The position numbers and the translations under genes are program-made. Below the pieces are notes generated by a model that made no database searches, had not been told where the DNA came from, and saw nothing but the letters and a program-made list of their open reading frames with translations. Positions 36,837 through 64,000 of a stretch of DNA of 64,000 bases are shown here, piece by piece. The DNA is from Watersipora subatra. Taxonomy: Eukaryota > Bryozoa > Gymnolaemata > Cheilostomatida > Watersiporidae. Positions within the stretch are counted from its first letter, which is position 1. Each line of letters starts with the position of its first letter. Location: assembly GCF_963576615.1 (NCBI RefSeq), contig NC_088711.1, forward strand, positions 18,818,182-18,882,181. The letters run 5' to 3'.

Positions 36837-37248
36837 ATTGGATAGCAAGGATAGTGGAGCAGCTGCATGCTCTTTATCATTCAACCTTTTAAAATCTGAA
36901 ATCCAAAGGAGTAAGGATTGGTAAACCTAGATTTAGATAACTAATCACATGCAGCCAACAAAAAGAAGGTTACTCCGAAAGAACAAATAGCAGTTTTTAA
37001 GTGCAAACCAGTTCTGGTTTTCCGCTAAATATGTAAATCTGAGATTTAAAACTAAGAAAGAACTCCAGTTTTGTCTAAATTTGCGCTAATATCAAAAGGT
37101 TTTAGCAGAGGACTGCGAAACGCTTTCGACTGAACTTTTACGCACACAAAAGCCTGGTGTTTACTCATTCAATGTTCAACAAAACAGATAACTTTGCTAA
37201 AAATTGACAGCGACACCGAAGAGAGTTGTAGCACAATGAAGCAAAAAT

Positions 37249-37320
37249 AGGTTCTACCGAGATTTGAACTCGGATCGCAGGATTCAAAGTCCTGAGTGCT
37301 AACCATTACACCATAGAACC
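37249..37320 (-). tRNA. tRNA-Gln(TTG), copy 1
   Basis: 72 nt including discriminator T. Stems GGTTCTA/TAGAACC, GTG/CAC, CAGGA/TCCTG and CCGAG/CTCGG all pair; the anticodon loop is CTTTGAA. A-box TGGTGTAATGG and T-loop TTCAAAT are present; a T5 terminator follows. Reference copy for the list below. Confidence 0.93.
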
Positions 37321-37758
37321 GATATCAACAGCAGCGATGTGTCGTTCAATTGCGCAAAGATAATGGAGGTGATATATGCTCTTTATCATTCAACCTTTTT
37401 AAATCTGAAATCCAAGGGAATCATGATTAGTGAACATAGATTTAGATAACTATTCACATGCAGCAAACAAAATAGGTTACTCTGAAACAACAAATAGCAA
37501 GCTTTAAATGAAAAAAACGTTGAAGTTTTGAGAAAATTAATTTGAAAGTCTGAGAATTAAAAAGGAGTAGAAGCTCTAATTTTGCCAAAATTTTCACTGA
37601 TATTAAAAACCCTTTACAGATGAAATCCAACCACTTTTGACTGAGCTTTCACACACACAAAAGTCTTGTGTTTACTCATTCGATGTTCAACAAAAAAGAG
37701 AACTTTGACAAAGATTGACAGCGACACCGATGAAAGTTGTAGCACAATGAAGAAAAAT

Positions 37759-37830
37759 AGGTTTTACCGAAATTTGAACTTGGATCGCAGGATTCAGAGT
37801 CCTGAGTGCTAACCATTACACCATAGAACC
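37759..37830 (-). tRNA. tRNA-Gln(CTG), copy 2, degenerate
   Basis: One acceptor mismatch (C5 against A) and a T-stem A-C mismatch plus wobble. T5 terminator. Likely pseudogene. Confidence 0.6.
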
Positions 37831-38269
37831 GATATCAACAGCAGCATGCGTCGTTCAATTGCGCAAAGATAATGGATGTGGTATATGCTCCTTATCATGC
37901 AACCTTTTAAAGTCTGAAATCCAAGGGAATCATGATTGGTGAAGATAGATTTAAATAACTATTCACATGCAGCCAACAAAAAACCGTTTACCCTAAAACA
38001 AAAAATAGCAAATTTTAAATGAAAAAAACGTTGAAGTTTTGAGAAAATTAATTTGAAAGTCTGAGAATTAAAAAGGAGTAGAAGCTCTAATTTTGCCAAA
38101 AATTGAACTAATGTAAAACCTTTTAACAGATGAGTTCCAACCACTTTCGACTGAGCTTTCACACACACAAAAGCCTGGTGTTTACTCATTCGATGTTCAA
38201 CAAAGAAGAAAACTTTGACAAAGATTGACAGCGACACCGAAGAGAGTAGTAGCACAATGAAGCAAAAAT

Positions 38270-38341
38270 AGGTTTTACCGAAATTTGAACTTGGATCGCA
38301 GGATTCAGAGTCCTGAGTGCTAACCATTACACCATAGAACC
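38270..38341 (-). tRNA. tRNA-Gln(CTG), copy 3, degenerate
   Basis: Same acceptor and T-stem changes as copy 2, so copies 2 and 3 share a decayed ancestor. Confidence 0.6.
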
Positions 38342-38783
38342 AATATCAACAGCAGCGATGCGTCGTTCAAATGCGCAAAGATAATGGAGGTGGTATATGC
38401 TCTTTATCATTCAACCTTTTTAAATCTGAAATCCAAGGGAATCATGATTAGTGAACATAGATTTAGAAAACTATTCACATGCAGCAAACAAAATAGGTTA
38501 CTCTGAAACAACAAATAGCAAGCTTTAAATGAAAAACAAAACGTTGAAGTTTTGATGAAATTATTATGAAAGTCTGAGAACTAAAAACAAGAAAAAACTC
38601 TAATTTTGCCAAAATTTTCACTGATATTAAAAATTTTTAACGAATAAGTTCCAACCACTTTCGACTGAGCTTTCACGCACACAAAAGCCTGGTGTTTACT
38701 CATTCGATGTTCAACAAAGAAGAAAAGTTCGACAAAGATTGACAGCGACACCAAAAAGAGCAGTAGCACAATGAAGCAAAAAT

Positions 38784-38855
38784 AGGTTCTACCGAGATTT
38801 GAACTCGGATCGCAGGATTCAGAGTCCTGAGTGCTAACCATTACACCATAGAACC
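38784..38855 (-). tRNA. tRNA-Gln(CTG), copy 4
   Basis: Anticodon loop CTCTGAA; all stems pair; T5 terminator. Confidence 0.93.
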
Positions 38856-39296
38856 GATATCAACAGCAGCGATGTGTCGCTCAAATGCGCAAAGACAATG
38901 AAGGTGCTACATGCTCTTTATAATTCAACATTTTAAAGTCTGAAATCCAAGGGACTAATGATTGGTGAATATAGATTTAGATATCTATTCAACTGCAGCC
39001 AACAAAAAACAGGTTACCGTAAAACAACAAATAAAAACTTTGAATGAAAAAAAAACGTTGAATTTTTGATAAAATTAATTTGAAAGTCTGAGAATTAAAA
39101 AGGAGTAGAAGCTCTAATTTTGCCAAAAATTGAACTAATATAAAAACTTTTAACAGATGAGTTCCAACCACTTTCGACTGAGCTTTCACACACACAAAAG
39201 CCATGTGTTTACTCATTCGATGTTCAACAAAGAAGAAAATTTCGAAAAAGATTGACAGCGACACCGAAGAGAGTAGTAGCACGATGGAGCAAAAAT

Positions 39297-39368
39297 AGGT
39301 TCTACCGAGATTTGAACGCGGATCGCAGGATTCAGAGTCCTGAGTGCTAACCATTACACCATAGAACC
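39297..39368 (-). tRNA. tRNA-Gln(CTG), copy 5
   Basis: One T-stem mismatch (CCGCG against CTCGG); otherwise intact. Confidence 0.8.
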
Positions 39369-39809
39369 GATATCAACAGCAGCGACGCGTCGTTCATTCG
39401 CGCAAAGGAAATGGAGGTGCTCTTTGCTCTTTATCATTCAACCTTTTAAAATCTGAAATCCAAGGGAATCATGATTGGTGAATATAGACTTAGATATCTA
39501 TTCACATGCAGCCAACAAAAAACAGGTTACCGTAAAACAACAAATAAAAACTTTGAATGAAAAAAAAACGTTGAATTTTTGATAAAATTAATTTGAAAGT
39601 CTGAGAATTAAAAAGGAGTAGAAGCTCTAATTTTGCCAAAAATTGAACTAATATAAAAACTTTTAACAGATGAGTTCCAACCACTTTCGACTGAGCTTTC
39701 ACACACACAAAAGCCTGGTGTTTACTCATTCGATGTTCAACAAAGAAGAAAATTTCGAAAAAGATTGACAGCGACACCGAAGAGAGTAGTAGCACGATGG
39801 AGCAAAAAT

Positions 39810-39881
39810 AGGTTCTACCGAGATTTGAACTCGGATCGCAGGATTCAAAGTCCTGAGTGCTAACCATTACACCATAGAACC
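39810..39881 (-). tRNA. tRNA-Gln(TTG), copy 6
   Basis: Intact cloverleaf, T5 terminator. Confidence 0.93.
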
Positions 39882-40323
39882 GACATCAACAGCAGCGATG
39901 TGTCGTTCAATTGCGCAAAGATAATGAAGGTGCTACATGTTCTTTATCATTCAACTTTTTAAAATCTGAAATCCAAGGGACTCATGATTGGTGAACATAG
40001 ATTTAAATAACTATTCACATGCAGCCAACAAAAAACAGGTTACCCTGAAACAACAAATTGCAAACTTTGAATGAAAAAAAAACGTTGAAGTTTTGATAAA
40101 ATTAATATGAAAATCTGAGAATTAAAAAGGAGTAAAAGCTCTAATTTTGCCAAACTTTTCACTGATATTAAAAACCCTTTACAGATGAGTTCCAACCACT
40201 TTTGACTGAGCTTTTACACCCACAAAAGCCTGGTGTTTACTCATTCGATGTTCAACAAAAAAAAAAATTTTGACAAATATTGACAGCGACACCGATGAGA
40301 GTTGTAGCACAATGAAGCAAATT

Positions 40324-40395
40324 GGGTTCTACCGAGATTTGAATTCGGATCGCAGGATTCAGAGTCCTGAGTGCTAACTATTACACCATAGAACC
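40324..40395 (-). tRNA. tRNA-Gln(CTG), copy 7, degenerate
   Basis: The discriminator is C, one of the invariant D-loop G pair is A, T-stem G53 is A (weakening the B-box), and only T3 follows. Probably inactive. Confidence 0.55.
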
Positions 40396-40831
40396 GATAT
40401 CAACAGCAGCGATGTGTCGTTCGATCGCACAAAGATAATGGATGTGGTATATGCTCTTTATCATTCAACCTTTTAAAATCTGAAATCCAAGAGAATCATG
40501 ATTGGTGAACATAGATTTAAATAACTATTCACACGCAGCAAACAAAATTGGTTACTCTGAAACAACAAATAGTAAGTTTTAAATGAAATACAAAACGTTT
40601 AATTTTCAATAAATATGAAAGTCTGAGAACTAAAAATGAGAAAAAGCTGTAATTTTGCCTAAATTTGCACTGATATAAAAACTTTTAACAGATGAGTTCC
40701 AAACACTTTCGACTGAGCTTTCTCGCACACAAAAGCCTGGTGTTTACTCATTCAATGTTCAACAAAAAAGAGAACTTTGACAAAGATTGACAGCGACACC
40801 GAAGAGAGTTGTAGCACAATGAAGCAAAAAT

Positions 40832-40903
40832 AGGTTCTACCGAGATTTGAACTCGGATCGCAGGATTCAAAGTCCTGAGTGCTAACCATTACACTATAGA
40901 ACC
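40832..40903 (-). tRNA. tRNA-Gln(TTG), copy 8
   Basis: A9 instead of G9, still within the A-box consensus (TAGTGTAATGG); stems pair; T5. Confidence 0.9.
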
Positions 40904-41344
40904 GATATCAACAGCAGCGATGCGTCGTTCAATCGCGCAAAGGAAATGGAGGTGCTCTATGCTCTTTATCATTCAACCTTTTAAAATCTGAAATCCAAGG
41001 GAATCATGATTGGTGAATATAGATTTAGATATCTATTCACATGCAGCCAACAAAAAACAGGTTATCGTAAAACAACAAATAAAAACTTTGAATGAAAAAA
41101 AAACGTTGAATTTTTGATAAAATTACTTTGAAAGTCTGAGAATTAAAAAGGAGTAGAAGCTCTAATTTTGATAAAAATTGAACTAATATAAAAACTTTTA
41201 ACAGATGAGTTCCAACCACTTTTGACTGAGCTTTCACACACACAAAAGCCTGGTGTTTACTCATTCGATGTTCAACAAAGAAGAAAACTTCGACAAATAT
41301 CAACAGCGACACCGAAGAGAGTTGTAGCACAATGAAGCAAAAAT

Positions 41345-41416
41345 AGGTTCTACCGAGATTTGAACTCGGATCGCAGGATTCAGAGTCCTGAGTGCTAACC
41401 ATTACACCATAGAACC
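41345..41416 (-). tRNA. tRNA-Gln(CTG), copy 9
   Basis: Intact cloverleaf, T5. Confidence 0.93.
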
Positions 41417-41856
41417 GATATCAACAGCAGCGATGTGTCGCTCAAATGCGCAAAGATAATGGAGGTGGTATATGCTCTTTATCATTCAACCTTTTTAAAT
41501 CTGAAATCCAAGAGAATCATGATTGGTGAATATAGATTTAGATAACTAAGGACATGCAGTCAACAAAAAACAGGTTACCGTAAAACAACAAATAAAAACT
41601 TTGAATGAAAAAAAACGTTGAATTTTTGGTAAAATTAACTTGAAAGTCTGAGAATTAAAAAGGAGTAGAAGCTCTAATTTTGCCAAAAATTGAACTAATA
41701 TAAAAACTTTTAACAGATGAGTTCCAACCACTTTCGACTGAGCTTTCTCGTACACAAAAGCCTGGTGTTTACTCATTCGATGTTCAACAAAAAAGATAAC
41801 TTTTACAAAGATTGACAGCGACACCGAAGAGAGTTGTAGCACAATGAAGCAAAAAT

Positions 41857-41928
41857 AGGTTCTACCGAGATTTGAACTTGGATCGCAGGATTCAGAGTCC
41901 TGAGTGCTAACCATTACACCATAGAACC
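41857..41928 (-). tRNA. tRNA-Gln(CTG), copy 10
   Basis: One A-C mismatch in the T-stem (CCAAG); otherwise intact, T5. Confidence 0.8.
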
Positions 41929-42364
41929 GATATCAACAGCAGCGATGTGTCGTTCAATCGCACAAAGATAATGGATGCGGTATATGCTCTTCATCATTCA
42001 ACTTTTTAAAATCTGAAATCCAAGGGAATCATGATTGGTGAAGATAGATTTAAATAACTATTCACATGGGGCCAACAAACTTGGTTATTCTGAAACAACA
42101 AATAGTAAGTTTTAAATGAAATACAAAACGTTTAATTTTTAATAAATATGAAAGTCTGAGAACTAAAAATGAGAAAAAGCTGTAATTTTTCCTAAATTTG
42201 CACTGATATAAAAACTTTTAACAGATGAGTTCCAGCAACTTTCGACTGAACTTTCTCGCACACAAAAGCCTGGTGTTTACTCATTCGATGTTCAACAAAG
42301 AAGAAAACTTCGACAAATATCAACAGCGACACCGAAGAGAGTTGTAGCACAATGAAGCAAAAAT

Positions 42365-42436
42365 AGGTTCTACCGAGATTTGAACTCGGATCGCAGGATT
42401 CAGAGTCCTGAGTGCTAACCATTACACCATAGAACC
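42365..42436 (-). tRNA. tRNA-Gln(CTG), copy 11
   Basis: Intact, T5. Duplicate partner of copy 28 (offset 8,687 bp). Confidence 0.93.
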
Positions 42437-42878
42437 GATATCAACAGCAACGATGTGTCGCCCAAATGCGCAAAGATAATGGAGGTGGTATATGCTCTTT
42501 ATCATTCAACCTTTTTAAATCTGAAATCCAAGAGAATCATGATTGGTGAATATAGATTTAGATAACAATTCACATGCAGCCAACAAAAAACAGGTTATCG
42601 TAAAACGACAAATAAAAACTTTGAATGAAAAGAAAATCGTTGAATTTTTGATAAAAGTAATTTGAAAGTCTGAGAACTAAAAAGGAGTAGAAGCTCTAAT
42701 TTTGCCAAAATTTGAACTAATATAAAAACTTTTAACAGATGAGTTCCAACCACTTTTGACTGAGCTTTCACGCACACAAAAGCCTGGTGTTTACTCATTC
42801 GATGTTCAACAAAGAAGAAAATTTCGAAAAAGATTGACAGCGACACCGAAGAGAGTAGTAGCACGATGGAGCAAAAAT

Positions 42879-42950
42879 AGGTTCTACCGAGATTTGAACT
42901 CGGATCGCAGGATTCAGAGTCCTGAGTGCTAACCATTACACCATAGAACC
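42879..42950 (-). tRNA. tRNA-Gln(CTG), copy 12
   Basis: Intact, T5. Partner of copy 29. Confidence 0.93.
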
Positions 42951-43385
42951 AATATCAACAGCAGCGATGTGTCGTTCAATCGCACAAAGATAATGGATGC
43001 GGTATATGCTCTTCATCATTCAACTTTTTAAAATCTGAAATCCAAGGGAATCATGATTGGTGAAGATAGATTTAAATAACTATTCACATGGGGCCAACAA
43101 ACTTGGTTATTCTGAAACAACAAATAGTAAGTTTTAAATGAAATACAAAACGTTTAATTTTTAATAAATATGAAAGTCTGAGAACTAAAAATGAGAAAAA
43201 GCTGTAATTTTGCCTAAATTTGCCCTAATATAAAAACTTTTAACAGATGAGTTCCAGCAACTTTCGACTGAGCTTTCTCGCACACAAAAGCCTGGTGTTT
43301 ACTCATTCGTTGTTCAACAAAGAAGAAAACTTCGACAAAGATTGACAGCGACACCGAACAGAGTTGTAGCACAATGAAGCAAAAT

Positions 43386-43457
43386 AGGTTCTACCAAGAT
43401 TTGAACTCGGATCGCAGGATTCAAAGTCCTGAGTGCTAACCATTACACCATAGAACC
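43386..43457 (-). tRNA. tRNA-Gln(TTG), copy 13
   Basis: A G-T wobble in the T-stem; T4 terminator. Partner of copy 30. Confidence 0.88.
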
Positions 43458-43898
43458 GACATCAACAGCAGCGATGTGTCGTTCAATTGCGCAAAGATAA
43501 TGAAGGTGCTACATGTTCTTTATCATTCAACTTTTTAAAATCTGAAATCCAAGGGACTCATGATTGGTGAACATAGATTTAAATAACTATTCACATGCAG
43601 CCAACAAAAACAGGTTACCCTGAAACAACAAATTGCAAACTTTGAATGAGAAAAAAACGTTGAAGTTTTGATAAAATTAATATGAAAATCTGAGAATTAA
43701 AAAGGAGTAAAAGCTCTAACTTTGCCAAAATTTTCACTGATATTAAAAACCCTTTACAGATGAGTTCCAACCACTTTTGACTGAGCTTTCACACCCACAA
43801 AAGCCTGGTGTTTACTCATTCGATGTTCAACAAAAAAAATAACTTTGACAAATATTGACAGCGACACCGAAGAGAGTTGTAGCACAATGAAGCAAAAT

Positions 43899-43970
43899 AG
43901 GTTCTACCGAGATTTGAATTCGGATCGCAGGATTCAGAGTCCTGAGTGCTAACCATTACACCATAGAACC
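43899..43970 (-). tRNA. tRNA-Gln(CTG), copy 14
   Basis: G53 is A, breaking a T-stem pair and weakening the B-box; T4. Partner of copy 31. Confidence 0.72.
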
Positions 43971-44406
43971 GATATCAACAGCAGCGATGTGTCGTTCGAT
44001 TGCACAAAGATAATGGATGTGGTATATGCTCTGTATCATTCAACCTTTTAAAATCTGAAATCCAAGAGAATCATGATTGGTGAACATAGATTTAAATAAC
44101 TATTCACACGCAGCCAACAAAATTGGTTACTCTGAAACAACAAATAGTAAGTTTTAAATGAAATACAAAACGTTTAATTTTCAATAAATATGAAAGTCTG
44201 AGAACTAAAAATGAGAAAAAGCTCTAATTTTGCCTAAATTTTCACTAATATATAAACTTTTAATGAATAAGTTCCAACCACGTTCTACTGAGCTTTCAAA
44301 CACACAAAAGCCTGGTGTTTACTCATTCAATGTTCAACAAAAAAGATAACTTTGACAAAGATTGACAGCGACACCGAAGAGAGTTGTAGCACAATGAAGC
44401 AAAAAT

Positions 44407-44478
44407 AGGTTCTACCGAGATTTGAACTCGGATCGCAGGATTCAAAGTCCTGAGTGCTAACCATTACACTATAGAACC
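44407..44478 (-). tRNA. tRNA-Gln(TTG), copy 15
   Basis: A9 variant, stems pair, T5. Partner of copies 20 and 32. Confidence 0.9.
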
Positions 44479-44919
44479 AATATCAACAGCAGCGATGTGT
44501 CGTTCGATTGCACAAAGATAATGGATGTGGTATATGCTCTGTATCATTCAATCTTTTAAAATCTGAAATCCAAGAGAATCATGATTGGTGAACATAGATT
44601 TAAATAACTATTCACATGCAGCCAACAAAAAACAGGTTACCGTAAAACAACAAATAAAAACTTTGAATGAAAAAAAAACGTTGAAGTTTGGATAAAATTA
44701 ATTTGAAAGTCTGAGAATTAAAAAGGAGTAGAAGCTCTAATTTTGATAAAAATTGAACTAATATAAAAACTTTTAACAGATGAGTTCCAACCACTTTCGA
44801 CTGAGCTTTCACACACACAAAAGCCTGGTGTTTACTCATTCGATGTTCAACAAAGAAGAAAACTTCAACAAATATCAACAGCGACACCGAAGAGAGTTGT
44901 AGCACAATGAAGCAAAGAT

Positions 44920-44991
44920 ATGTTCTACCGAGATTTGAACTCGGATCGCAGGATTCAAAGTCCTGAGTGCTAACCATTACACCATAGAACC
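44920..44991 (-). tRNA. tRNA-Gln(TTG), copy 16, weakened
   Basis: C72 is A, opening the first acceptor pair, and the downstream run is only T3. Shares this with copies 21, 33 and 39. Confidence 0.65.
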
Positions 44992-45431
44992 GATATCAAC
45001 AGCAGCGATGTGTCGTTCAATCGCACAAAGATAATGGATGTGGTATATGCTCTTTATCATTCAACTTTTTAAAATCTGAAATCCAAGGAAATCATGATTA
45101 GTGAACATAGATTTAAATAACTATTCACATGCAGCCAACAAAAAACAGGTTAACCTGAAACAACAAATAAAAACTTTGAATGAAAAAAAACGTTGAATTT
45201 TTGGTAAAATTAACTTGAAAGTCTGAGAATTAAAAAGGAGTAGAAGCTCTAATTTTGCCAAAAATTGAACTAATATAAAAACTTTTAACAGATGAGTTCC
45301 AACCACTTTCGACTGAGCTTTCTCGCACACAAAAGCCTGGTGTTTACTCATTCGATGTTCAACAAAAAAGATAACTTTTACAAAGATTGACAGCGACACC
45401 GAAGAGAGTTGTAGCACAATGAAGCAAAAAT

Positions 45432-45503
45432 AGGTTCTACCGAGATTTGAACTCGGATCGCAGGATTCAAAGTCCTGAGTGCTAACCATTACACTATAGA
45501 ACC
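45432..45503 (-). tRNA. tRNA-Gln(TTG), copy 17
   Basis: A9 variant, stems pair, T5. Confidence 0.9.
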
Positions 45504-45944
45504 GATATCAACAGCAGCGATGCGTCGTTCAATCGCGCAAAGGAAATGGAGGTGCTCTATGCTCTTTATCATTCAACCTTTTAAAATCTGAAATCCAAGG
45601 GAATCATGATTGGTGAATATAGATTAAGATATCTATTCACATGCAGCCAACAAAAAACAGGTTACCGTAAAACAACAAATAAAAACTTTGAATGAAAAAA
45701 AAACGTTGAATTTTTGATAAAATTACTTTGAAAGTCTGAGAATTAAAAAGGAGTAGAAGCTTTAATTTTGCCAAAAATTGAACTAATATAAAAACTTTTA
45801 ACAGATGAGTTCCAACCACTTTCGACTGAGCTTTCACACACACAAAAGCCTGGTGTTTACTCATTCGATGTTCAACAAAGAAGAAAACTTCGACAAATAT
45901 CAACAGCGACACTGAAGAGAGTTGTAGCACAATGAAGCAAAAAC

Positions 45945-46456: not shown

Positions 46457-46528
46457 AGGTTCTACCGAGATTTGAACTCGGATCGCAGGATTCAGAGTCC
46501 TGAGTGCTAACCATTACACCATAGAACC
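46457..46528 (-). tRNA. tRNA-Gln(CTG), copy 19
   Basis: Intact, T5. Confidence 0.93.
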
Positions 46529-50107: not shown

Positions 50108-50543
50108 GATATCAACAGCAGCGATGTGTCGTTCAATCGCACAAAGATAATGGATGCGGTATATGCTCTTCATCATTCAACTTTTTAAAATCTGAAATCC
50201 AAGGGAATCATGATTGGTGAAGATAGATTTAAATAACTATTCACATGGGGCCAACAAACTTGGTTATTCTGAAACAACAAATAGTAAGTTTTAAATGAAA
50301 TACAAAACGTTTAATTTTTAATAAATATGAAAGTCTGAGAACTAAAAATGAGAAAAAGCTGTAATTTTTCCTAAATTTGCACTGATATAAAAACTTTTAA
50401 CAGATGAGTTCCAGCAACTTTCGACTGAGCTTTCTCGCACACAAAAGCCTGGTGTTTACTCATTCGATGTTCAATAATAAAGAAAACTTTGACAAAGATT
50501 GACAGCGACACCGAAGAGAGTTGTAGCACAATGAAGCAAAAAT

Positions 50544-50615
50544 AGGTTCTACCGAGATTTGAACTTGGATCGCAGGATTCAGAGTCCTGAGTGCTAACCA
50601 TTACACCATAGAACC
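50544..50615 (-). tRNA. tRNA-Gln(CTG), copy 27
   Basis: Same T-stem mismatch as copy 26; the two units are 508 bp apart and nearly identical from mid-spacer through the tRNA. Confidence 0.8.
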
Positions 50616-51051
50616 GATATCAACAGCAGCGATGTGTCGTTCAATCGCACAAAGATAATGGATGCGGTATATGCTCTTCATCATTCAACTTTTTAAAATC
50701 TGAAATCCAAGGGAATCATGATTGGTGAAGATAGATTTAAATAACTATTCACATGGGGCCAACAAACTTGGTTATTCTGAAACAACAAATAGTAAGTTTT
50801 AAATGAAATACAAAACGTTTAATTTTTAATAAATATGAAAGTCTGAGAACTAAAAATGAGAAAAAGCTGTAATTTTTCCTAAATTTGCACTGATATAAAA
50901 ACTTTTAACAGATGAGTTCCAGCAACTTTCGACTGAACTTTCTCGCACACAAAAGCCTGGTGTTTACTCATTCGATGTTCAACAAAGAAGAAAACTTCGA
51001 CAAATATCAACAGCGACACCGAAGAGAGTTGTAGCACAATGAAGCAAAAAT

Positions 51052-51123
51052 AGGTTCTACCGAGATTTGAACTCGGATCGCAGGATTCAGAGTCCTGAGT
51101 GCTAACCATTACACCATAGAACC
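51052..51123 (-). tRNA. tRNA-Gln(CTG), copy 28
   Basis: Intact, T5; partner of copy 11. Confidence 0.93.
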
Positions 51124-51565
51124 GATATCAACAGCAACGATGTGTCGCCCAAATGCGCAAAGATAATGGAGGTGGTATATGCTCTTTATCATTCAACCTT
51201 TTTAAATCTGAAATCCAAGAGAATCATGATTGGTGAATATAGATTTAGATAACAATTCACATGCAGCCAACAAAAAACAGGTTATCGTAAAACGACAAAT
51301 AAAAACTTTGAATGAAAAGAAAATCGTTGAATTTTTGATAAAAGTAAATTGAAAGTCTGAGAACTAAAAAGGAGTAGAAGCTCTAATTTTGCCAAAATTT
51401 GAACTAATATAAAAACTTTTAACAGATGAGTTCCAACCACTTTTGACTGAGCTTTCACGCACACAAAAGCCTGGTGTTTACTCATTCGATGTTCAACAAA
51501 GAAGAAAATTTCGAAAAAGATTGACAGCGACACCGAAGAGAGTAGTAGCACGATGGAGCAAAAAT

Positions 51566-51637
51566 AGGTTCTACCGAGATTTGAACTCGGATCGCAGGAT
51601 TCAGAGTCCTGAGTGCTAACCATTACACCATAGAACC
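51566..51637 (-). tRNA. tRNA-Gln(CTG), copy 29
   Basis: Intact, T5; partner of copy 12. Confidence 0.93.
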
Positions 51638-52072
51638 AATATCAACAGCAGCGATGTGTCGTTCAATCGCACAAAGATAATGGATGCGGTATATGCTCTT
51701 CATCATTCAACTTTTTAAAATCTGAAATCCAAGGGAATCATGATTGGTGAAGATAGATTTAAATAACTATTCACATGGGGCCAACAAACTTGGTTATTCT
51801 GAAACAACAAATAGTAAGTTTTAAATGAAATACAAAACGTTTAATTTTTAATAAATATGAAAGTCTGAGAACTAAAAATGAGAAAAAGCTGTAATTTTGC
51901 CTAAATTTGCCCTAATATAAAAACTTTTAACAGATGAGTTCCAGCAACTTTCGACTGAGCTTTCTCGCACACAAAAGCCTGGTGTTTACTCATTCGTTGT
52001 TCAACAAAGAAGAAAACTTCGACAAAGATTGACAGCGACACCGAACAGAGTTGTAGCACAATGAAGCAAAAT

Positions 52073-52144
52073 AGGTTCTACCAAGATTTGAACTCGGATC
52101 GCAGGATTCAAAGTCCTGAGTGCTAACCATTACACCATAGAACC
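52073..52144 (-). tRNA. tRNA-Gln(TTG), copy 30
   Basis: T-stem wobble, T4; partner of copy 13. Confidence 0.88.
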
Positions 52145-52586
52145 GACATCAACAGCAGCGATGTGTCGTTCAATTGCGCAAAGATAATGAAGGTGCTACA
52201 TGTTCTTTATCATTCAACTTTTTAAAATCTGAAATCCAAGGGACTCATGATTGGTGAACATAGATTTAAATAACTATTCACATGCAGCCAACAAAAAACA
52301 GGTTACCCTGAAACAACAAATTGCAAACTTTGAATGAGAAAAAAACGTTGAAGTTTTGATAAAATTAATATGAAAATCTGAGAATTAAAAAGGAGTAAAA
52401 GCTCTAACTTTGCCAAAATTTTCACTGATATTAAAAACCCTTTACAGATGAGTTCCAACCACTTTTGACTGAGCTTTCACACCCACAAAAGCCTGGTGTT
52501 TACTCATTCGATGTTCAACAAAAAAAATAACTTTGACAAATATTGACAGCGACACCGAAGAGAGTTGTAGCACAATGAAGCAAAAT

Positions 52587-52658
52587 AGGTTCTACCGAGA
52601 TTTGAATTCGGATCGCAGGATTCAGAGTCCTGAGTGCTAACCATTACACCATAGAACC
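52587..52658 (-). tRNA. tRNA-Gln(CTG), copy 31
   Basis: G53A T-stem mismatch, T4; partner of copy 14. Confidence 0.72.
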
Positions 52659-53094
52659 GATATCAACAGCAGCGATGTGTCGTTCGATTGCACAAAGATA
52701 ATGGATGTGGTATATGCTCTGTATCATTCAACCTTTTAAAATCTGAAATCCAAGAGAATCATGATTGGTGAACATAGATTTAAATAACTATTCACACGCA
52801 GCCAACAAAATTGGTTACTCTGAAACAACAAATAGTAAGTTTTAAATGAAATACAAAACGTTTAATTTTCAATAAATATGAAAGTCTGAGAACTAAAAAT
52901 GAGAAAAAGCTCTAATTTTGCCTAAATTTTCACTAATATATAAACTTTTAATGAATAAGTTCCAACCACGTTCTACTGAGCTTTCAAACACACAAAAGCC
53001 TGGTGTTTACTCATTCAATGTTCAACAAAAAAGATAACTTTGACAAAGATTGACAGCGACACCGAAGAGAGTTGTAGCACAATGAAGCAAAAAT

Positions 53095-53166
53095 AGGTTC
53101 TACCGAGATTTGAACTCGGATCGCAGGATTCAAAGTCCTGAGTGCTAACCATTACACTATAGAACC
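53095..53166 (-). tRNA. tRNA-Gln(TTG), copy 32
   Basis: A9 variant, T5; partner of copy 15. Confidence 0.9.
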
Positions 53167-53607
53167 AATATCAACAGCAGCGATGTGTCGTTCGATTGCA
53201 CAAAGATAATGGATGTGGTATATGCTCTGTATCATTCAATCTTTTAAAATCTGAAATCCAAGAGAATCATGATTGGTGAACATAGATTTAAATAACTATT
53301 CACATGCAGCCAACAAAAAACAGGTTACCGTAAAACAACAAATAAAAACTTTGAATGAAAAAAAAACGTTGAAGTTTGGATAAAATTAATTTGAAAGTCT
53401 GAGAATTAAAAAGGAGTAGAAGCTCTAATTTTGATAAAAATTGAACTAATATAAAAACTTTTAACAGATGAGTTCCAACCACTTTCGACTGAGCTTTCAC
53501 CCACACAAAAGCCTGGTGTTTACTCATTCGATGTTCAACAAAGAAGAAAACTTCAACAAATATCAACAGCGACACCGAAGAGAGTTGTAGCACAATGAAG
53601 CAAAGAT

Positions 53608-53679
53608 ATGTTCTACCGAGATTTGAACTCAGATCGCAGGATTCAAAGTCCTGAGTGCTAACCATTACACCATAGAACC
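53608..53679 (-). tRNA. tRNA-Gln(TTG), copy 33, weakened
   Basis: C72A and T3, plus a T-G wobble in the T-stem; shared with copy 39. Confidence 0.62.
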
Positions 53680-54120
53680 GATATCAACAGCAGCGATGTG
53701 TCGTTCAATCGCACAAAGATAATGGATGTGGTATATGCTCTTTATCATTCAACTTTTTAAAATCTGAAATCCAAGGAAATCATGATTAGTGAACATAGAT
53801 TTAAATAACTATTCACATGCAGCCAACAAAAAACAGGTTAACCTGAAACAACAAACAAAAACTTTGAATGAAAAAAAACCGTTGAAGTTTTGATAAAATT
53901 AATATGAAAGTCTGAGATTTAAAAACGAGTAAAAGCTCTAACTTTGCCAAAATTTTCACTGATATTAAAAACTTTTAACAGATGAGTTCCAACCACTTTT
54001 GACTGAGCTTTCACACACACAAAAGCCTGGTGTTTACTCATTCGATGTTCAACAAAAAAAATAACTTTGACAAAGATTGACAGCGACACCGAACAGAGTT
54101 GTAGCACAATGAAACAAAAT

Positions 54121-54192
54121 AGGTTCTACCGAGAATTGAACTTGGATCGCAGGATTCAGAGTCCTGAGTGCTAACCATTACACCATAGAACC
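54121..54192 (-). tRNA. tRNA-Gln(CTG), copy 34
   Basis: T-stem mismatch and altered T-loop (TTCAATT), T4; identical changes in copy 40. Confidence 0.68.
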
Positions 54193-54627
54193 GATATCAA
54201 CAGCAGCGATGTGTCGTTCAATCGCACAAAGATAATTGATGCGGTATATGCTCTTCATCATTCAACTTTTTAAAATCTGAAATCCAAGGGAATCATGATT
54301 GGTGAAGATAGATTTAAATAACTATTCACATGGGGCCAACAAACGTGGTTATTCTGAAACAACAAATAGTAAGTTTTAAATGAAATACAAAACGTTTAAT
54401 TTTTAATAAATATGAAAGTCTGAGAACTAAAAATGAGAAAAAGCTGTAATTTTTCCTAAATTTGCACTGATATAAAAACTTTTAACATATGAGTTCCAGC
54501 AACTTTCGACTGAACTTTCTCGCACACAAAAGCCTGGTGTTTACTCATTCGTTGTTCAACAAAGAAGAAAACTTCGACAAAGATTGACAGCGACACCGAA
54601 CAGAGTTGTAGCACAATGAAGCAAAAT

Positions 54628-54699
54628 AGGTTCTACCGAGATTTGAACTCGGATCGCAGGATTCAAAGTCCTGAGTGCTAACCATTACACCATAGAACC
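54628..54699 (-). tRNA. tRNA-Gln(TTG), copy 35
   Basis: Intact, T4. Confidence 0.91.
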
Positions 54700-55141
54700 G
54701 ACATCAACAGCAGCGATGTGTCGTTCAATTGCGCAAAGATAATGAAGGTGCTACATGTTCTTTATCATTCAACTTTTTAAAATCTGAAATCCAAGGGACT
54801 CATGATTGGTGAACATAGATTTAAATAACTATTCACATGCAGCCAACAAAAACAGGTTACCCTGAAACAACAAATTGCAAACTTTGAATGAGAAAAAAAC
54901 GTTGAAGTTTTGATAAAATTAATATGAAAATCTGAGAATTAAAAAGGAGTAAAAGCTCTAACTTTGCCAAAATTTTCACTGATACTAAAAACCCTTTACA
55001 GATGAGTTCCAACCACTTTTGACTGAGCTTTCACACCCACAAAAGCCTGGTGTTTACTCATTCGATGTTCAACAAAAAAAAAAATTTTGACAAATATTGA
55101 CAGAGACACCGATGAGAGTTGTAGCACAATGAAGCAAAAAT

Positions 55142-55213
55142 AGGTTCTACCGAGATTTGAACTCGGATCGCAGGATTCAGAGTCCTGAGTGCTAACCATT
55201 ACACCATAGAACC
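55142..55213 (-). tRNA. tRNA-Gln(CTG), copy 36
   Basis: Intact, T5. Confidence 0.93.
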
Positions 55214-55656
55214 GATATCAACAGCAGCGATGTGTCGTTCAATCGCGCAAAGATAATGGATGTGGTATATGCTCCTTATCATGCAACCTTTTTAAAATCT
55301 GAAATCCAAGGGAATCATGATTGGTGAACATAGATTTAAATAACTATTCACATGCAGCCAACAAAAAACAGGTTACCCTGAAACAGCAAATAGCAAACTT
55401 TGAATGAAAAAAAACCGTTGAAGTTTTGATAAAATTAATATGAAAGTCTGAGAACTAAAAACAAGAAAAAGCTCTAATTTTGCCTAAATTTGCACTAATA
55501 TATAAACTTTTAACGAATAAGTTCCAACCACGTTTGACTGAGCTTTCACACACACAAAAGCCTGGTGTTTACTCATTCGATAGTCAACAAAAAAAAAAAT
55601 TTTGACAAAGATTGACAGCGACACCGAACAGAGTTGTAGCACAATGAAGCAAAAAT

Positions 55657-55728
55657 AGGTTCTACCGAGATTTGAACTCGGATCGCAGGATTCAGAGTCC
55701 TGAGTGCTAACCATTACACCATAGAACC
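55657..55728 (-). tRNA. tRNA-Gln(CTG), copy 37
   Basis: Intact, T5; upstream flank reads CAGCTG where others have CTGCTG. Confidence 0.93.
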
Positions 55729-56164
55729 GATATCAACAGCTGCGATGTGTCGTTCGATCGCACAAAGATAATGGATGTGGTATATGCTCTTTATCATTCA
55801 ACCTTTTAAAATCTGAAATCCAAAAGAATCATGATTGGTGAACATAGATTTAAATAACTATTCACATGCAGCCAACAAAATTGGTTACTTTGAAACAACA
55901 AATAGTAAGTTTTAAATGAAATACAAAACGTTTAATTTTCAATAAATATGAAAGTCTGAGAACTAAAAATGAGAAAAAGCTCTAATTTTGCCTAATTTTG
56001 CACTGATATAAAAACTTTTAACGAATAAGTTCCAACCACGTACTACTGAGCTTTCAAACACACAAAAGCCTGGTGTTTACTCATTCAATGTTCAACAAAA
56101 AAGAGAACTTTGACAAAGATTGACAGCGACACCGAAGAGAGTTGTAGCACAATGAAGCAAAAAT

Positions 56165-56236
56165 AGGTTCTACCGAGATTTGAACTCGGATCGCAGGATT
56201 CAGAGTCCTGAGTGCTAACCATTACACCATAGAACC
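56165..56236 (-). tRNA. tRNA-Gln(CTG), copy 38
   Basis: Intact, T5. Confidence 0.93.
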
Positions 56237-56678
56237 GATATCAACAGCAGCGATGTGTCGCTCAAATGCGCAAAGATAATGGAGGTGGTATATGCTCTTT
56301 ATCATTCAACCTTTTTAAATCTGAAATCCAAGAGAATCATGATTGGTGAATATAGATTTAGATAACTATTCACATGCAGCCAACAAAAAACAGGTTATTG
56401 TAAAACGACAAATAAAAACTTTGAATGAAAAAAAAAACGTTGAATTTTTGATAAAAGTAATTTGAAAGTCTGAGAACTAAAAAGGAGTAGAAGCTCTAAT
56501 TTTGCCAAAATTTGAACTAATATAAAAACTTTTAACAGATGAGTTCCAACCACTTTCGACTGAGCTTTCACCCACACAAAAGCCTGGTGTTTACTCATTC
56601 GATGTTCAACAAAGAAGAAAACTTCAACAAATATCAACAGCGACACCGAAGAGAGTTGTAGCACAATGAAGCAAAGAT

Positions 56679-56750
56679 ATGTTCTACCGAGATTTGAACT
56701 CAGATCGCAGGATTCAAAGTCCTGAGTGCTAACCATTACACCATAGAACC
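56679..56750 (-). tRNA. tRNA-Gln(TTG), copy 39, weakened
   Basis: Carries copy 33's tRNA changes (C72A, T3, wobble), but the distal spacer of its monomer is of copy 45 type: a recombinant unit. Confidence 0.62.
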
Positions 56751-57191
56751 GATATCAACAGCAGCGATGTGTCGTTCAATCGCACAAAGATAATGGATGT
56801 GGTATATGCTCTTTATCATTCAACTTTTTAAAATCTGAAATCCAAGGAAATCATGATTAGTGAACATAGATTTAAATAACTATTCACATGCAGCCAACAA
56901 AAAACAGGTTAACCTGAAACAACAAACAAAAACTTTGAATGAAAAAAAACCGTTGAAGTTTTGATAAAATTAATATGAAAGTCTGAGATTTAAAAACGAG
57001 TAAAAGCTCTAACTTTGCCAAAATTTTCACTGATATTAAAAACTTTTAACAGATGAGTTCCAACCACTTTTGACTGAGCTTTCACACACACAAAAGCCTG
57101 GTGTTTACTCATTCGATGTTCAACAAAAAAAATAACTTTGACAAAGATTGACAGCGACACCGAACAGAGTTGTAGCACAATGAAACAAAAT

Positions 57192-57263
57192 AGGTTCTAC
57201 CGAGAATTGAACTTGGATCGCAGGATTCAGAGTCCTGAGTGCTAACCATTACACCATAGAACC
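57192..57263 (-). tRNA. tRNA-Gln(CTG), copy 40
   Basis: Same T-arm changes as copy 34, 3,071 bp away. Confidence 0.68.
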
Positions 57264-57698
57264 GATATCAACAGCAGCGATGTGTCGTTCAATCGCACAA
57301 AGATAATTGATGCGGTATATGCTCTTCATCATTCAACTTTTTAAAATCTGAAATCCAAGGGAATCATGATTGGTGAAGATAGATTTAAATAACTATTCAC
57401 ATGGGGCCAACAAACGTGGTTATTCTGAAACAACAAATAGTAAGTTTTAAATGAAATACAAAACGTTTAATTTTTAATAAATATGAAAGTCTGAGAACTA
57501 AAAATGAGAAAAAGCTGTAATTTTTCCTAAATTTGCACTGATATAAAAACTTTTAACATATGAGTTCCAGCAACTTTCGACTGAACTTTCTCGCACACAA
57601 AAGCCTGGTGTTTACTCATTCGTTGTTCAACAAAGAAGAAAACTTCGACAAAGATTGACAGCGACACCGAACAGAGTTGTAGCACAATGAAGCAAAAT

Positions 57699-57770
57699 AG
57701 GTTCTACCGAGATTTGAACTCGGATCGCAGGATTCAAAGTCCTGAGTGCTAACCATTACACCATAGAACC
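57699..57770 (-). tRNA. tRNA-Gln(TTG), copy 41
   Basis: Intact, T4; partner of copy 35. Confidence 0.91.
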
Positions 57771-58212
57771 GACATCAACAGCAGCGATGTGTCGTTCAAT
57801 TGCGCAAAGATAATGAAGGTGCTACATGTTCTTTATCATTCAACTTTTTAAAATCTGAAATCCAAGGGACTCATGATTGGTGAACATAGATTTAAATAAC
57901 TATTCACATGCAGCCAACAAAAACAGGTTACCCTGAAACAACAAATTGCAAACTTTGAATGAGAAAAAAACGTTGAAGTTTTGATAAAATTAATATGAAA
58001 ATCTGAGAATTAAAAAGGAGTAAAAGCTCTAACTTTGCCAAAATTTTCACTGATACTAAAAACCCTTTACAGATGAGTTCCAACCACTTTTGACTGAGCT
58101 TTCACACCCACAAAAGCCTGGTGTTTACTCATTCGATGTTCAACAAAAAAAAAAATTTTGACAAATATTGACAGAGACACCGATGAGAGTTGTAGCACAA
58201 TGAAGCAAAAAT

Positions 58213-58284
58213 AGGTTCTACCGAGATTTGAACTCGGATCGCAGGATTCAGAGTCCTGAGTGCTAACCATTACACCATAGAACC
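58213..58284 (-). tRNA. tRNA-Gln(CTG), copy 42
   Basis: Intact, T5; partner of copy 36. Confidence 0.93.
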
Positions 58285-58727
58285 GATATCAACAGCAGCG
58301 ATGTGTCGTTCAATCGCGCAAAGATAATGGATGTGGTATATGCTCCTTATCATGCAACCTTTTTAAAATCTGAAATCCAAGGGAATCATGATTGGTGAAC
58401 ATAGATTTAAATAACTATTCACATGCAGCCAACAAAAAACAGGTTACCCTGAAACAGCAAATAGCAAACTTTGAATGAAAAAAAACCGTTGAAGTTTTGA
58501 TAAAATTAATATGAAAGTCTGAGAACTAAAAACAAGAAAAAGCTCTAATTTTGCCTAAATTTGCACTAATATATAAACTTTTAACGAATAAGTTCCAACC
58601 ACGTTTGACTGAGCTTTCACACACACAAAAGCCTGGTGTTTACTCATTCGATAGTCAACAAAAAAAAAAATTTTGACAAAGATTGACAGCGACACCGAAC
58701 AGAGTTGTAGCACAATGAAGCAAAAAT

Positions 58728-58799
58728 AGGTTCTACCGAGATTTGAACTCGGATCGCAGGATTCAGAGTCCTGAGTGCTAACCATTACACCATAGAACC
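58728..58799 (-). tRNA. tRNA-Gln(CTG), copy 43
   Basis: Intact, T5; shares the CAGCTG upstream flank with copy 37. Confidence 0.93.
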
Positions 58800-59235
58800 G
58801 ATATCAACAGCTGCGATGTGTCGTTCGATCGCACAAAGATAATGGATGTGGTATATGCTCTTTATCATTCAACCTTTTAAAATCTGAAATCCAAAAGAAT
58901 CATGATTGGTGAACATAGATTTAAATAACTATTCACATGCAGCCAACAAAATTGGTTACTTTGAAACAACAAATAGTAAGTTTTAAATGAAATACAAAAC
59001 GTTTAATTTTCAATAAATATGAAAGTCTGAGAACTAAAAATGAGAAAAAGCTCTAATTTTGCCTAATTTTGCACTGATATAAAAACTTTTAACGAATAAG
59101 TTCCAACCACGTACTACTGAGCTTTCAAACACACAAAAGCCTGGTGTTTACTCATTCAATGTTCAACAAAAAAGAGAACTTTGACAAAGATTGACAGCGA
59201 CACCGAAGAGAGTTGTAGCACAATGAAGCAAAAAT

Positions 59236-59307
59236 AGGTTCTACCGAGATTTGAACTCGGATCGCAGGATTCAGAGTCCTGAGTGCTAACCATTACACCA
59301 TAGAACC
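59236..59307 (-). tRNA. tRNA-Gln(CTG), copy 44
   Basis: Intact, T5; partner of copy 38. Confidence 0.93.
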
Positions 59308-59749
59308 GATATCAACAGCAGCGATGTGTCGCTCAAATGCGCAAAGATAATGGAGGTGGTATATGCTCTTTATCATTCAACCTTTTTAAATCTGAAATCC
59401 AAGAGAATCATGATTGGTGAATATAGATTTAGATAACTATTCACATGCAGCCAACAAAAAACAGGTTATTGTAAAACGACAAATAAAAACTTTGAATGAA
59501 AAAAAAAACGTTGAATTTTTGATAAAAGTAATTTGAAAGTCTGAGAACTAAAAAGGAGTAGAAGCTCTAATTTTGCCAAAATTTGAACTAATATAAAAAC
59601 TTTTAACAGATGAGTTCCAACCACTTTCGACTGAGCTTTCACGCACACAAAAGCCTGGTGTTTACTCATTCGATGTTCAACAAAGAAGAAAATTTCGAAA
59701 AAGATTGACAGCGACACCGAGGAGAATAGTAGCACGATGGAGCAAAAAT

Positions 59750-59821
59750 AGGTTCTACCGAGATTTGAACTCGGATCGCAGGATTCAGAGTCCTGAGTGC
59801 TAACCATTACACCATAGAACC
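59750..59821 (-). tRNA. tRNA-Gln(CTG), copy 45
   Basis: Intact, T5; its position corresponds to copy 39, but the tRNA differs, which bounds the 3,071-bp duplication. Confidence 0.93.
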
Positions 59822-60261
59822 AATATCAACAGCAGCGATGCGTCGTTCAATCGCACAAAGATAATGGATGTGGTATATGCTCTTTATCATTCAACTTTTT
59901 TAAATCTGAAATCCAAGGGAATCATGATTAGTGAACATAGATTTAGATAACTATTCACATGCAGCAAACAAAATAGGTTACTCTGAACCAACAAATAGCA
60001 AGCTTTAAATGAAAAACAAGACGTTTAATTTTTGATAAATATGAAAGTCTGAAACATAAAAAAAAAGAAAAAAATCTGTATGTTGACCTAAATTTTCACT
60101 GACATTAAAAACCTTTAACAGATCAGTTCCAAACACTTTCGACTGAGCTTTCACGCACAAAAAAGCCTTGTATTTACTCATTTGATGTTCAATAACAATG
60201 AAAACTTTGACAAAGATTGACAGCGACACCGAAGAGAGTTGTAGCACAATGAAGCAAAAAT

Positions 60262-60333
60262 AGGTTCTACCGAGATTTGAACTCGGATCGCAGGATTCAG
60301 AGTTCTGAGTGCTAACCATTACACCATAGAACC
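60262..60333 (-). tRNA. tRNA-Gln(CTG), copy 46
   Basis: One anticodon-stem mismatch (CAGAA against TCCTG), T5. Confidence 0.78.
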
Positions 60334-60774
60334 AATATCAACAGCAGCGATGCGTCGTTCAATTGCGCAAAGATAATGGAGCTAGTATATGCTCTTTATC
60401 ATTCAACCTTTTTAAATCTGAAATCCAAGGGAATCATGATTAGTGAACATAGATTTAGATAACTATTCACATGCAGCAAACAAAATAGGTTACTCTGAAA
60501 CAACAAATAGCAAGCTTTAAATGAAAAACAAGACGTTTAATTTTTGATAAATATTAAAGGTTTGAGACATAAAAAAAATGAAGAAAATCTATATGTTGAC
60601 CTAAATTTTCACTGACATTTAAAACCTTTAACAGATCAGTTCCAAACACTTTCGACTGAGCTTTCACGCACACAAAAGCCTTGTGTTTACTCATTTGATG
60701 TTCAATAAAAAAGAAAACTTTGACAAAGATTGACAGCGACACCGAAGAGAGTTGTAGCACAATGAAGCAAAAAT

Positions 60775-60846
60775 AGGTTCTACCGAGATTTGAACTCGGA
60801 TCGCAGGATTCAGAGTTCTGAGTGCTAACCATTACACCATAGAACC
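60775..60846 (-). tRNA. tRNA-Gln(CTG), copy 47
   Basis: Same anticodon-stem mismatch as copy 46. Confidence 0.78.
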
Positions 60847-61286
60847 AATATCAACAGCAGCGATGCGTCGTTCAATTGCGCAAAGATAATGGAGGTGGTA
60901 TATGCTCTTTATCATTCAACCTTTTTAAATCTGAAATCCAAGGGAATCATGATTAGTGAACATAGATTTAGATAACTATTCACATGCAGCAAACAAAATA
61001 GGTTACTCTGAAACAATAAATAGCAAGCTTTAACTGAAAAACAAGACGTTTAATTTTTGATAAATGTGAAAGTCTGAGACATAAAAAAAAAGAAAAAAAT
61101 CTATATGTTGACTTAAATTTTCACTGACATTAAAAACCTTTAACAGATCAGTTCCAAACACTTTCGACTGAGCTTTCACACACACAAAAGCCTTGTGTTT
61201 ACTCATTTGATGTTCAACAAAAAAGATATCTTTGACAAAGATTGACAGCGACACCGAAGAGAGTTGTAGCACAATGAAGCAAAAAT

Positions 61287-61358
61287 AGGTTCTACCGAGA
61301 TTTGAACTCGGATCGCAGGATTCAAAGTCCTGAGTGCTAACCATTACACCATAGAACC
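61287..61358 (-). tRNA. tRNA-Gln(TTG), copy 48
   Basis: Intact, T5. Confidence 0.93.
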
Positions 61359-61798
61359 AATATCAACAGCAGCGATGCGTCGTTCAATTGCGCAAAGATA
61401 ATGGAGGTGGTATATGCTCTTTATCATTCAACCTTTTTAAATCTGAAATCCAAGGGAATCATGATTAGTGAACATAGATTTAGATAACTATTCACATGCA
61501 GCAAACAAAATAGGTTACTCTGAAACAATAAATAGCAAGCTTTAACTGAAAAACAAGACGTTTAATTTTTGATAAATGTGAAAGTCTGAGACATAAAAAA
61601 AAAGAAAAAAATCTATATATTGACCTAAATTTTCACTAACATTAAAAACCTTTAACAGATCAGTTCCAAACACTTTCGACTGAGCTTTCACGCACACAAA
61701 AGCCTTGTGTTTACTCATTTGATGTTCAACAAAAAAGATATCTTTGACAAAGATTGACAGCGACACCGAAGAGAGTTGTAGCACAATGAAGCAAAAAT

Positions 61799-61870
61799 AG
61801 GTTCTACCGAGATTTGAACTCGGATCGCAGGATTCAAAGTCCTGAGTGCTAACCATTACACCATAGAACC
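61799..61870 (-). tRNA. tRNA-Gln(TTG), copy 49
   Basis: Intact, T5; the monomer is nearly identical to that of copy 48. Confidence 0.93.
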
Positions 61871-62311
61871 GATATCAACAGCAGCGATGCGTCGTTCAAT
61901 CGCGCAAAGGAAATGGAGGTGCTCTATGCTCTTTATCATTCAACCTTTTAAAATCTGAAATCCAAGGGAATCATGATTGGTGAATATAGATTTAGATATC
62001 TATTCACATGCAGCCAACAAAAAACAGGTTACCGTAAAACGACAAATAAAAATTTTGAATGAAAAAAAAACGTTGAATTTTTGATAAAATTAATTTGAAA
62101 GTCTGAGAATTATAAAGGAGTAGAAGCTCTAATTTTGCCAAAATTTGAACTAATATAAAAACTTTTAACAGATGAGTTCCAACCACTTTCGACTGAGCTT
62201 TCACACACACAAAAGCCTGGTGTTTACTCACTCAATGTTCAACAAAAAAGATAACTCTGACAAAGATTGACAGCGACACCGAACAGAGTTGTAGCACAAT
62301 GAAGCAAAAAT

Positions 62312-62382
62312 AGGTTCTACCGAGATTGAACTCGGATCGCAGGATTCAAAGTCCTGAGTGCTAACCATTACACCATAGAACC
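62312..62382 (-). tRNA. tRNA-Gln(TTG), copy 50, T-loop deletion
   Basis: The T-loop is one base short (TTCAAT), which breaks the B-box spacing; otherwise intact. Possibly inactive. Confidence 0.65.
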
Positions 62383-62822
62383 GATATCAACAGCAGCGAT
62401 GTGTCGTTCAATCGCGCAAAGATAATGGATGTGGTATATGCTCTTTATCATTCAACCTTTTAAAATCTGAAATCCAAGGGAATCATGATTAGTGAACATA
62501 GATTTCGAAAACTATTCACATGCAGCAAACAAAATAGGTTACTCTGAAACAACAAATAGCAAGCTTTAAATGAAAAACAAAACGTTTAAATTTTGATAAA
62601 TACGAAAGTCTGAGACATAAAAAAAAAGAAAAAAATCTATATATTGACCTAAATTTTCACTAACATTAAAAACCTTTAACAGATCAGTTCCAAACACTTT
62701 CGACTGAGCTTTCACGCACACAAAAGCCTTGTGTTTACTCATTCGATGTTCAATGAAAAAGAAAACTTTGACAAAGATTGACAGCGACACCGAAGAGAGT
62801 TGTAGCACAATGAAGCAAAAAT

Positions 62823-62894
62823 AGGTTCTACCGAGATTTGAACTCGGATCGCAGGATTCAAAGTCCTGAGTGCTAACCATTACACCATAGAACC
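62823..62894 (-). tRNA. tRNA-Gln(TTG), copy 51
   Basis: Intact, T5. Confidence 0.93.
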
Positions 62895-63334
62895 GATATC
62901 AACAGCAGCGATGCGTCGTTCAATCGCGCAAAGGAAATGGAGGTGCTCTATGCTCTTTATCATTCAACCTTTTAAAATCTGAAATCCAAGAGAATCATGA
63001 TTGGTGAATATAGATTTAGATATCTATTCACATGCAGCCAACAAAAAACAGGTTACCGTAAAACAACAAATAAAAACTTTGAATGAAAATAAACGTTGAA
63101 TTTTTGATAAAATTAATTTGAAAGTCTGAGAATTAAAAAGGAGTAGAAGCTCTAATTTTGCCAAAAATTGAACTAATACAAAAACTTTTAACAGATGAGT
63201 TTCAACCACTTTCGACTGAGCTTTCACACACACAAAAGCCTGGTGTTTACTCATTCGATGTTCAACAAAGAAGAAAACTTCGACAAATATCAACAGCGAC
63301 ACCGAAGAGAGTTGTAGCACAATGAAGCAAAAAT

Positions 63335-63406
63335 AGGTTCTACCGAGATTTGAACTCGGATCGCAGGATTCAGAGTCCTGAGTGCTAACCATTACACCAT
63401 AGAACC
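63335..63406 (-). tRNA. tRNA-Gln(CTG), copy 52
   Basis: Intact, T5. Confidence 0.93.
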
Positions 63407-63849
63407 GATATCAACAGCAGCGATGTGTCGCTCAAATGCGCAAAGATAATGGAGGTGGTATATGCTCTTTATCATTCAACCTTTTTAAATCGGAAATCCA
63501 AGGGAATCATGATTGGTGAATATAGATTTAGATAACTATTCACATGCAGCCAACAAAAAACAGGTTATCGTAAAACGACAAATAAAAACTTTGAATGAAA
63601 AAAAAATCGTTGAATTTTTTGATAAAAGTAATTTGAAAGTCTGAGAATTAAAAAGGAGTAGAAGCTCTAATTTTGCTAAAATTTGAACTAATATAAAAAC
63701 TTTTAACAGATGAGTTCCAACCACTTTCGACTGAGCTTTCACGCACACAAAAGCCTTGTGTTTACTCATTTGATGTTCAATAAAAAAGAAAACTTACACA
63801 AAGATTGACAGCGACACCGAAGAGAGTTGTAGCACAATGAAGCAAAAAT

Positions 63850-63921
63850 AGGTTCTACCGAGATTTGAACTCGGATCGCAAGATTCAGAGTCCTGAGTGC
63901 TAACCATTACACCATAGAACC
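63850..63921 (-). tRNA. tRNA-Gln(CTG), copy 53
   Basis: A G-T wobble in the anticodon stem (TCTTG); otherwise intact, T5. Last copy before the window edge. Confidence 0.9.
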
Positions 63922-64000
63922 GATATCAACAGCAGCAATGCGTCGTTCAATCGCGCAAAGAAAATGGAGGTGCTCTTTGCTCTTTATCATTCAACCTTTT

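Follow-up and report, generated by a model that had tools for sequence, protein, structure and literature searches.

Does a long run of tandem tRNA-Gln genes represent a working gene family, a satellite that carries a tRNA, a set of retroposed copies or an artefact of assembly, and how do its members come to carry both glutamine anticodons? A 64,000-nucleotide stretch of DNA (the window) raises these questions, and we addressed them from the copy number and integrity of the genes, the distribution of diversity within and among the repeat units, and published tRNA gene arrays.

Extent and integrity of the array

The window contains 53 minus-strand tRNA-Gln genes (37249-37320 to 63850-63921, ARAGORN), and because the array continues past the right end of the window this is a minimum copy number. 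Alignment of the 53 units gives a unit length of 507-515 bp and an average whole-unit pairwise identity of 0.89, with up to 24% divergence between units. All copies lie above the gathering score of 29 in Rfam RF00005 (range 37.9-70.8 bits), and 51 of the 53 score at least 52.4 bits. The locus thus combines many same-strand copies, even spacing and alignable spacers, as in a tandem tRNA gene array, and its copies have the cloverleaf, conserved sequence and glutamine anticodon of nuclear tRNA-Gln genes. The array is real; a regular same-strand order of 53 genes cannot be chance.

When each stem was scored by script, standard pairing was complete in 32 of the 53 copies, and a T4 or T5 run starts 1 nt past the gene end in every one of these. 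Across the array, a terminator of four or more Ts in this position is present in 48 copies, and most copies have an A-box region TGGTGTAATGGT and a B-box region AGTTCAAATCT, so that both the internal and the terminal signals of RNA polymerase III (Pol III) genes are in place; no CCA follows the gene in the array copies. Each of the other 21 copies shows a stem mismatch or an indel. All five copies that lack the terminator also have a broken stem (Fisher p = 0.007), although these amount to about two independent cases of decay, since four of them (u16, u21, u33 and u39) have the same acceptor-stem change and the same flank variant. Judged by pairing and terminators, the majority of copies look functional.

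An earlier note on this DNA had described 53 same-strand tRNA-Gln genes at this spacing, running off the end of the window, with alignable spacers, about 32 fully paired cloverleafs and T4 or T5 terminators nearly everywhere. ARAGORN, the unit alignment and the per-copy scoring bear this out, the number of fully paired copies being exactly 32. Its left boundary, 36837, is close to the point at about 36845 where recognisable unit homology begins, and low covariance-model scores, which it had named as evidence against the array, did not appear in the Rfam comparison.

Coordinates of the array, its block copies, its edge unit and the outlying relics in the window
Feature	Position	Strand	Basis
tRNA-Gln gene array, head to tail, one gene per unit	37249-63921	-	ARAGORN, Rfam RF00005, unit alignment, per-copy stem and terminator scoring
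Tandem six-unit block duplication	53441-59692	-	Diagonal scan
3.39-kb block with a copy 17 units away	41805-45191	-	Diagonal scan
Left-edge unit (u01)	36845-37320	-	Unit alignment and homology comparison
Decayed tRNA-Gln copy	32010-32098	-	ARAGORN, homology and permissive RNA search; 34 bits
Decayed copy in inverse orientation	29586-29657	+	Homology and permissive RNA search; 27.3 bits, below threshold

The flanking sequence holds plus-strand exons of dihydrolipoyl acetyltransferase (pyruvate dehydrogenase E2; 1948-12745), whose lipoyl, E3-binding and catalytic parts are distributed across more than 10 kb, and the best match of one exon is to mammalian E2. As this gene is split over several exons, the genome is intron-rich and probably that of an animal. 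Three related plus-strand open reading frames (20080-20667, 21648-22118 and 24118-24645) form a small local family; the first encodes an OTU-like cysteine protease (Pfam), the second shares 33% identity with it over 148 amino acids, and the third is more distant. About seven copies of a repeat of about 64 bp occupy 20646-21097, at the end of the first of these frames. Two minisatellites with 17-bp periods and different units lie at 17307-18482 (about 70 copies) and 14797-15367 (about 33 copies), and a 134-bp direct repeat of 90% identity occurs at 33475-33608 and 33703-33835.

Constraint and exchange among the units

Per-site diversity is 0.029 in the tRNA gene and 0.104 in the spacer, a 3.5-fold difference, and even the least diverse 72-bp window of spacer reaches at least 0.062. 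The difference persists when recent duplicates are collapsed into 42 haplotypes, defined as units differing by more than three sites (41 without the edge unit): the values are then 0.031 (tRNA) and 0.104 (spacer), with segregating sites at 17 of 72 tRNA positions and 210 of 443 spacer positions (Fisher p = 1.7e-4). In a passive satellite the tRNA would be no more conserved than the rest of its unit. Here the gene is under constraint, so a purely passive satellite is disfavoured, and so is the suggestion of the earlier note that a satellite had captured a tRNA, where passive junk is meant: in this unit the tRNA is the most conserved part, and 32 copies are fully paired with a terminator. The most constant stretch of the unit is the first 30 bases of the gene; variation is also low in the last 20-25 bases upstream of it, and diversity climbs gradually to either side. 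Because this gradient is gradual on both sides, gene-centred conversion may add to the effect of selection in keeping tRNA diversity low.

A spacer motif, AATGAGTAAACACCAGGC, at unit alignment columns of about 151-175, is as low in diversity as the tRNA. It matches no RNA family, and an exact match to this 25-nt sequence is absent from prokaryote and viral collections. Rfam identified no RNA other than tRNA in the spacers across the window, and a permissive RNA search over 18000-37900, an interval that takes in the first units, added two tRNA relics and one chance-level match. We did not accept the repeated open reading frames of 127-128 amino acids as genes, since they run across the tRNA, only a minority of the units keeps them open, and the unit length is usually not divisible by three.

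A largely silent, satellite-like repeat, in which unequal exchange alone shapes the array and most copies lie unexpressed in heterochromatin, is possible by analogy with the tRNA-Ser/Tyr cluster of Arabidopsis, which is silent in most tissues and active in root tips (PMC12308677). The 21 copies with a broken stem pair or an indel are in keeping with such a repeat, as is the copying of multi-unit blocks, which is typical of satellites. We nevertheless regard it as unlikely, given the low diversity of the tRNA, the 32 fully paired copies with their terminators, and a CpG observed/expected ratio of 0.80 in the array spacers vs 0.61 in the flanking 36.8 kb. The array is less depleted in CpG than its surroundings; CpG decay was therefore set aside as a mark of silencing, and nothing points to heavy germline methylation.

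Exchange between units is apparent at two scales. Within the unit, linkage (r2) falls from 0.25 at less than 10 bp to 0.03 at more than 400 bp, and the share of site pairs with all four gametes rises with distance from 34% to about 80%; since this decay takes place inside one unit, exchange tracts are shorter than 500 bp. At the larger scale, 53441-56621 recurs at 56512-59692, at an offset of 3071 and with a single mismatch in 3181 bp, and 41805-45191 differs from its copy at 50492-53879 by 4 mismatches and one 1-bp indel. The near-perfect tandem block of 3.1 kb could be an assembly error, and it is the point in favour of mis-joined reads as the source of the array or of its duplicated blocks. 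We consider such an origin very unlikely: most neighbouring units are clearly different and 42 haplotypes lie more than three sites apart, at its left edge the array borders unrelated sequence, and there are decayed units outside it. An artefact could alter the copy count; it could not create the array.

The edge itself has diverged. The leftmost unit differs most from the others (best whole-unit identity to any of them 0.81), with a distal spacer that in places is 54-70% like the consensus and a tRNA that is exactly the commonest TTG form. Left of 36837, homology to the unit is not above shuffles. Two decayed units, absent from the earlier note, occur at a distance of 5-8 kb from the array, and one of the two is inverted. 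The minus-strand relic has an insertion of about 17 nt in its variable/T region and borderline traces of the downstream spacer (429; the highest of 800 random segments reached 426), and homology of its 5' flank, beyond 32098, to the unit is not above shuffles. In the inverted relic, the upstream flank of the unit is recognisable in the preceding 85 bp (score 141; none of 3,000 random segments scored above 97). With derived forms of a single tRNA present, outlying ones among them, one might think of a tandem tRNA-derived SINE or a retrotransposed tRNA family, a reading to which we give almost no credence. Such a SINE has a tRNA head on an unrelated body and is dispersed by reverse transcription; here CCA is lacking, a 5-T terminator directly follows the gene in most copies, the head-to-tail order is strict, and an outlying copy keeps genomic flank upstream of the gene. 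The relics fit DNA-level duplication rather than retroposition.

Low tRNA diversity, linkage decay within the unit and multi-unit block copies together indicate concerted evolution of the units, to which the diverged edge also conforms. We consider it highly probable that the locus is a Pol III tRNA-Gln array in which unequal exchange and gene conversion have multiplied and homogenised the units and selection keeps most copies functional. The starting point would have been a single tRNA gene, together with about 440 bp of flanking sequence, that was duplicated head to tail; continual expansion and homogenisation would have followed through unequal exchange and gene conversion between units, and purifying selection acting on the array as a whole would have kept the majority of its tRNA genes functional. 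The copies would be transcribed by Pol III, and the array would supply both glutamine isoacceptors. Against this explanation stand the defective copies, the possible conversion near the gene and the possible assembly error in the tandem block.

Two anticodons on one backbone

The earlier note did not mention that the array carries both glutamine isoacceptors on one tRNA backbone. The anticodon is CTG in 34 copies and TTG in 19 (ARAGORN and per-copy scoring), and the 32 fully paired copies split into 18 CTG and 14 TTG. A UUG anticodon reads CAA and a CUG anticodon reads CAG. No site of the gene varies more than position 34, which is nearly unlinked to other variants (r2 <= 0.21). With recent duplicates removed, the anticodon state changes 11 times on the spacer tree, compared with a mean of 12.5 (range 8-15) for shuffled labels. 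Along the array the two anticodons follow one another in random order (24 runs against 25.4 expected), with neither regular alternation nor clustering of CTG and TTG copies.

The simplest account of the C/T variation at position 34 is a nearly neutral change that leaves the amino acid as it is and has passed from unit to unit through conversion. Recurrent mutation at this position would produce much the same distribution, and the mixture could also be one favoured by selection. A maintained two-state isoacceptor pool, in which C34 and T34 pass freely among units and the remainder of the tRNA is kept unchanged, seems to us improbable; if true, a single locus, with no need for separate gene families, would supply both glutamine tRNAs and could quickly re-balance them.

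Selection may also have favoured the array because it provides tRNA-Gln in large amounts, with a CTG:TTG ratio tuned to codon use, a proposal about why the array is kept that is compatible with concerted evolution under selection for function. The earlier note had raised high tRNA-Gln demand and, as another possibility, a chromosomal domain with TFIIIC clustering. The good representation of both anticodons among the fully paired copies agrees with it, and the Arabidopsis Ser/Tyr cluster supports the making of a Ser/Tyr/Pro-rich protein in root-tip cells (PMC12308677). On the other hand, the anticodon order is random and independent of lineage, as fits neutral exchange, and those tRNA families of Phytophthora infestans that are expanded the most match rare codons (PMC9584435), so that copy number by itself is weak evidence of demand. 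We therefore entertain selection for dosage or isoacceptor balance as a tentative, minority view.

Relation to known tRNA gene arrays

The earlier note had called a glutamine-only array of this density unusual. Its regularity is indeed unusual, but comparable single-isotype arrays have been published (PMC9584435). P. infestans has 271 tRNA-Cys-GCA genes in a single-isotype head-to-tail array with a 513-nt unit, practically identical in length to the 507-515 bp found here, as well as repeat arrays pairing tRNA-Gln-CTG with tRNA-Gln-TTG; variants cluster near an edge of its arrays, and growth is ascribed to unequal crossing-over (PMC9584435). The monomeric arrays of P. infestans are nearly identical internally, whereas the present units are diverged, and its glutamine anticodons sit in dimeric or trimeric units, whereas here successive units carry one or the other anticodon at random. 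The window, with 35% GC and an intron-rich gene, is also unlikely to come from an oomycete. A limited literature search did not find a published match for a random two-anticodon mixture in a diverged monomeric array.

Similarly, the Entamoeba arrays consist of tRNA genes in tandem units and their homogenisation is explained by concerted evolution, but those units hold up to five different tRNA genes, and in two species short tandem repeats separate the genes (PMC2652664), in contrast to one gene per unit and no such repeats here. Hydractinia has tRNA arrays for all 20 amino acids (PMC11067881). The human 1q23.3 locus is likewise a tandem repeat with tRNA genes, variable in copy number, whose GC-rich, CTCF-binding unit of 7.3 kb (PMC4041453) differs from the AT-rich 0.5-kb unit here. 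The Arabidopsis clusters share the tandem duplication of small units; they differ in that the Ser/Tyr cluster mixes isotypes (PMC12308677) and the Cys cluster has only four genes, in 0.4-kb units with a tRNA-Cys pseudogene ahead of them (PMC10701932).

The array is a member of the known class of self-homogenising tRNA gene arrays, and it offers a clear, well-preserved case of concerted evolution of a tRNA gene family. It is also a natural experiment, in that one unit carries either anticodon, unlinked to spacer lineage, which makes it possible to ask if codon use or drift determines the anticodon ratio and the number of copies. Tandem tRNA arrays were reportedly once thought special to Entamoeba; the present locus adds to the evidence that, given contiguous assemblies, they appear in other eukaryotes.
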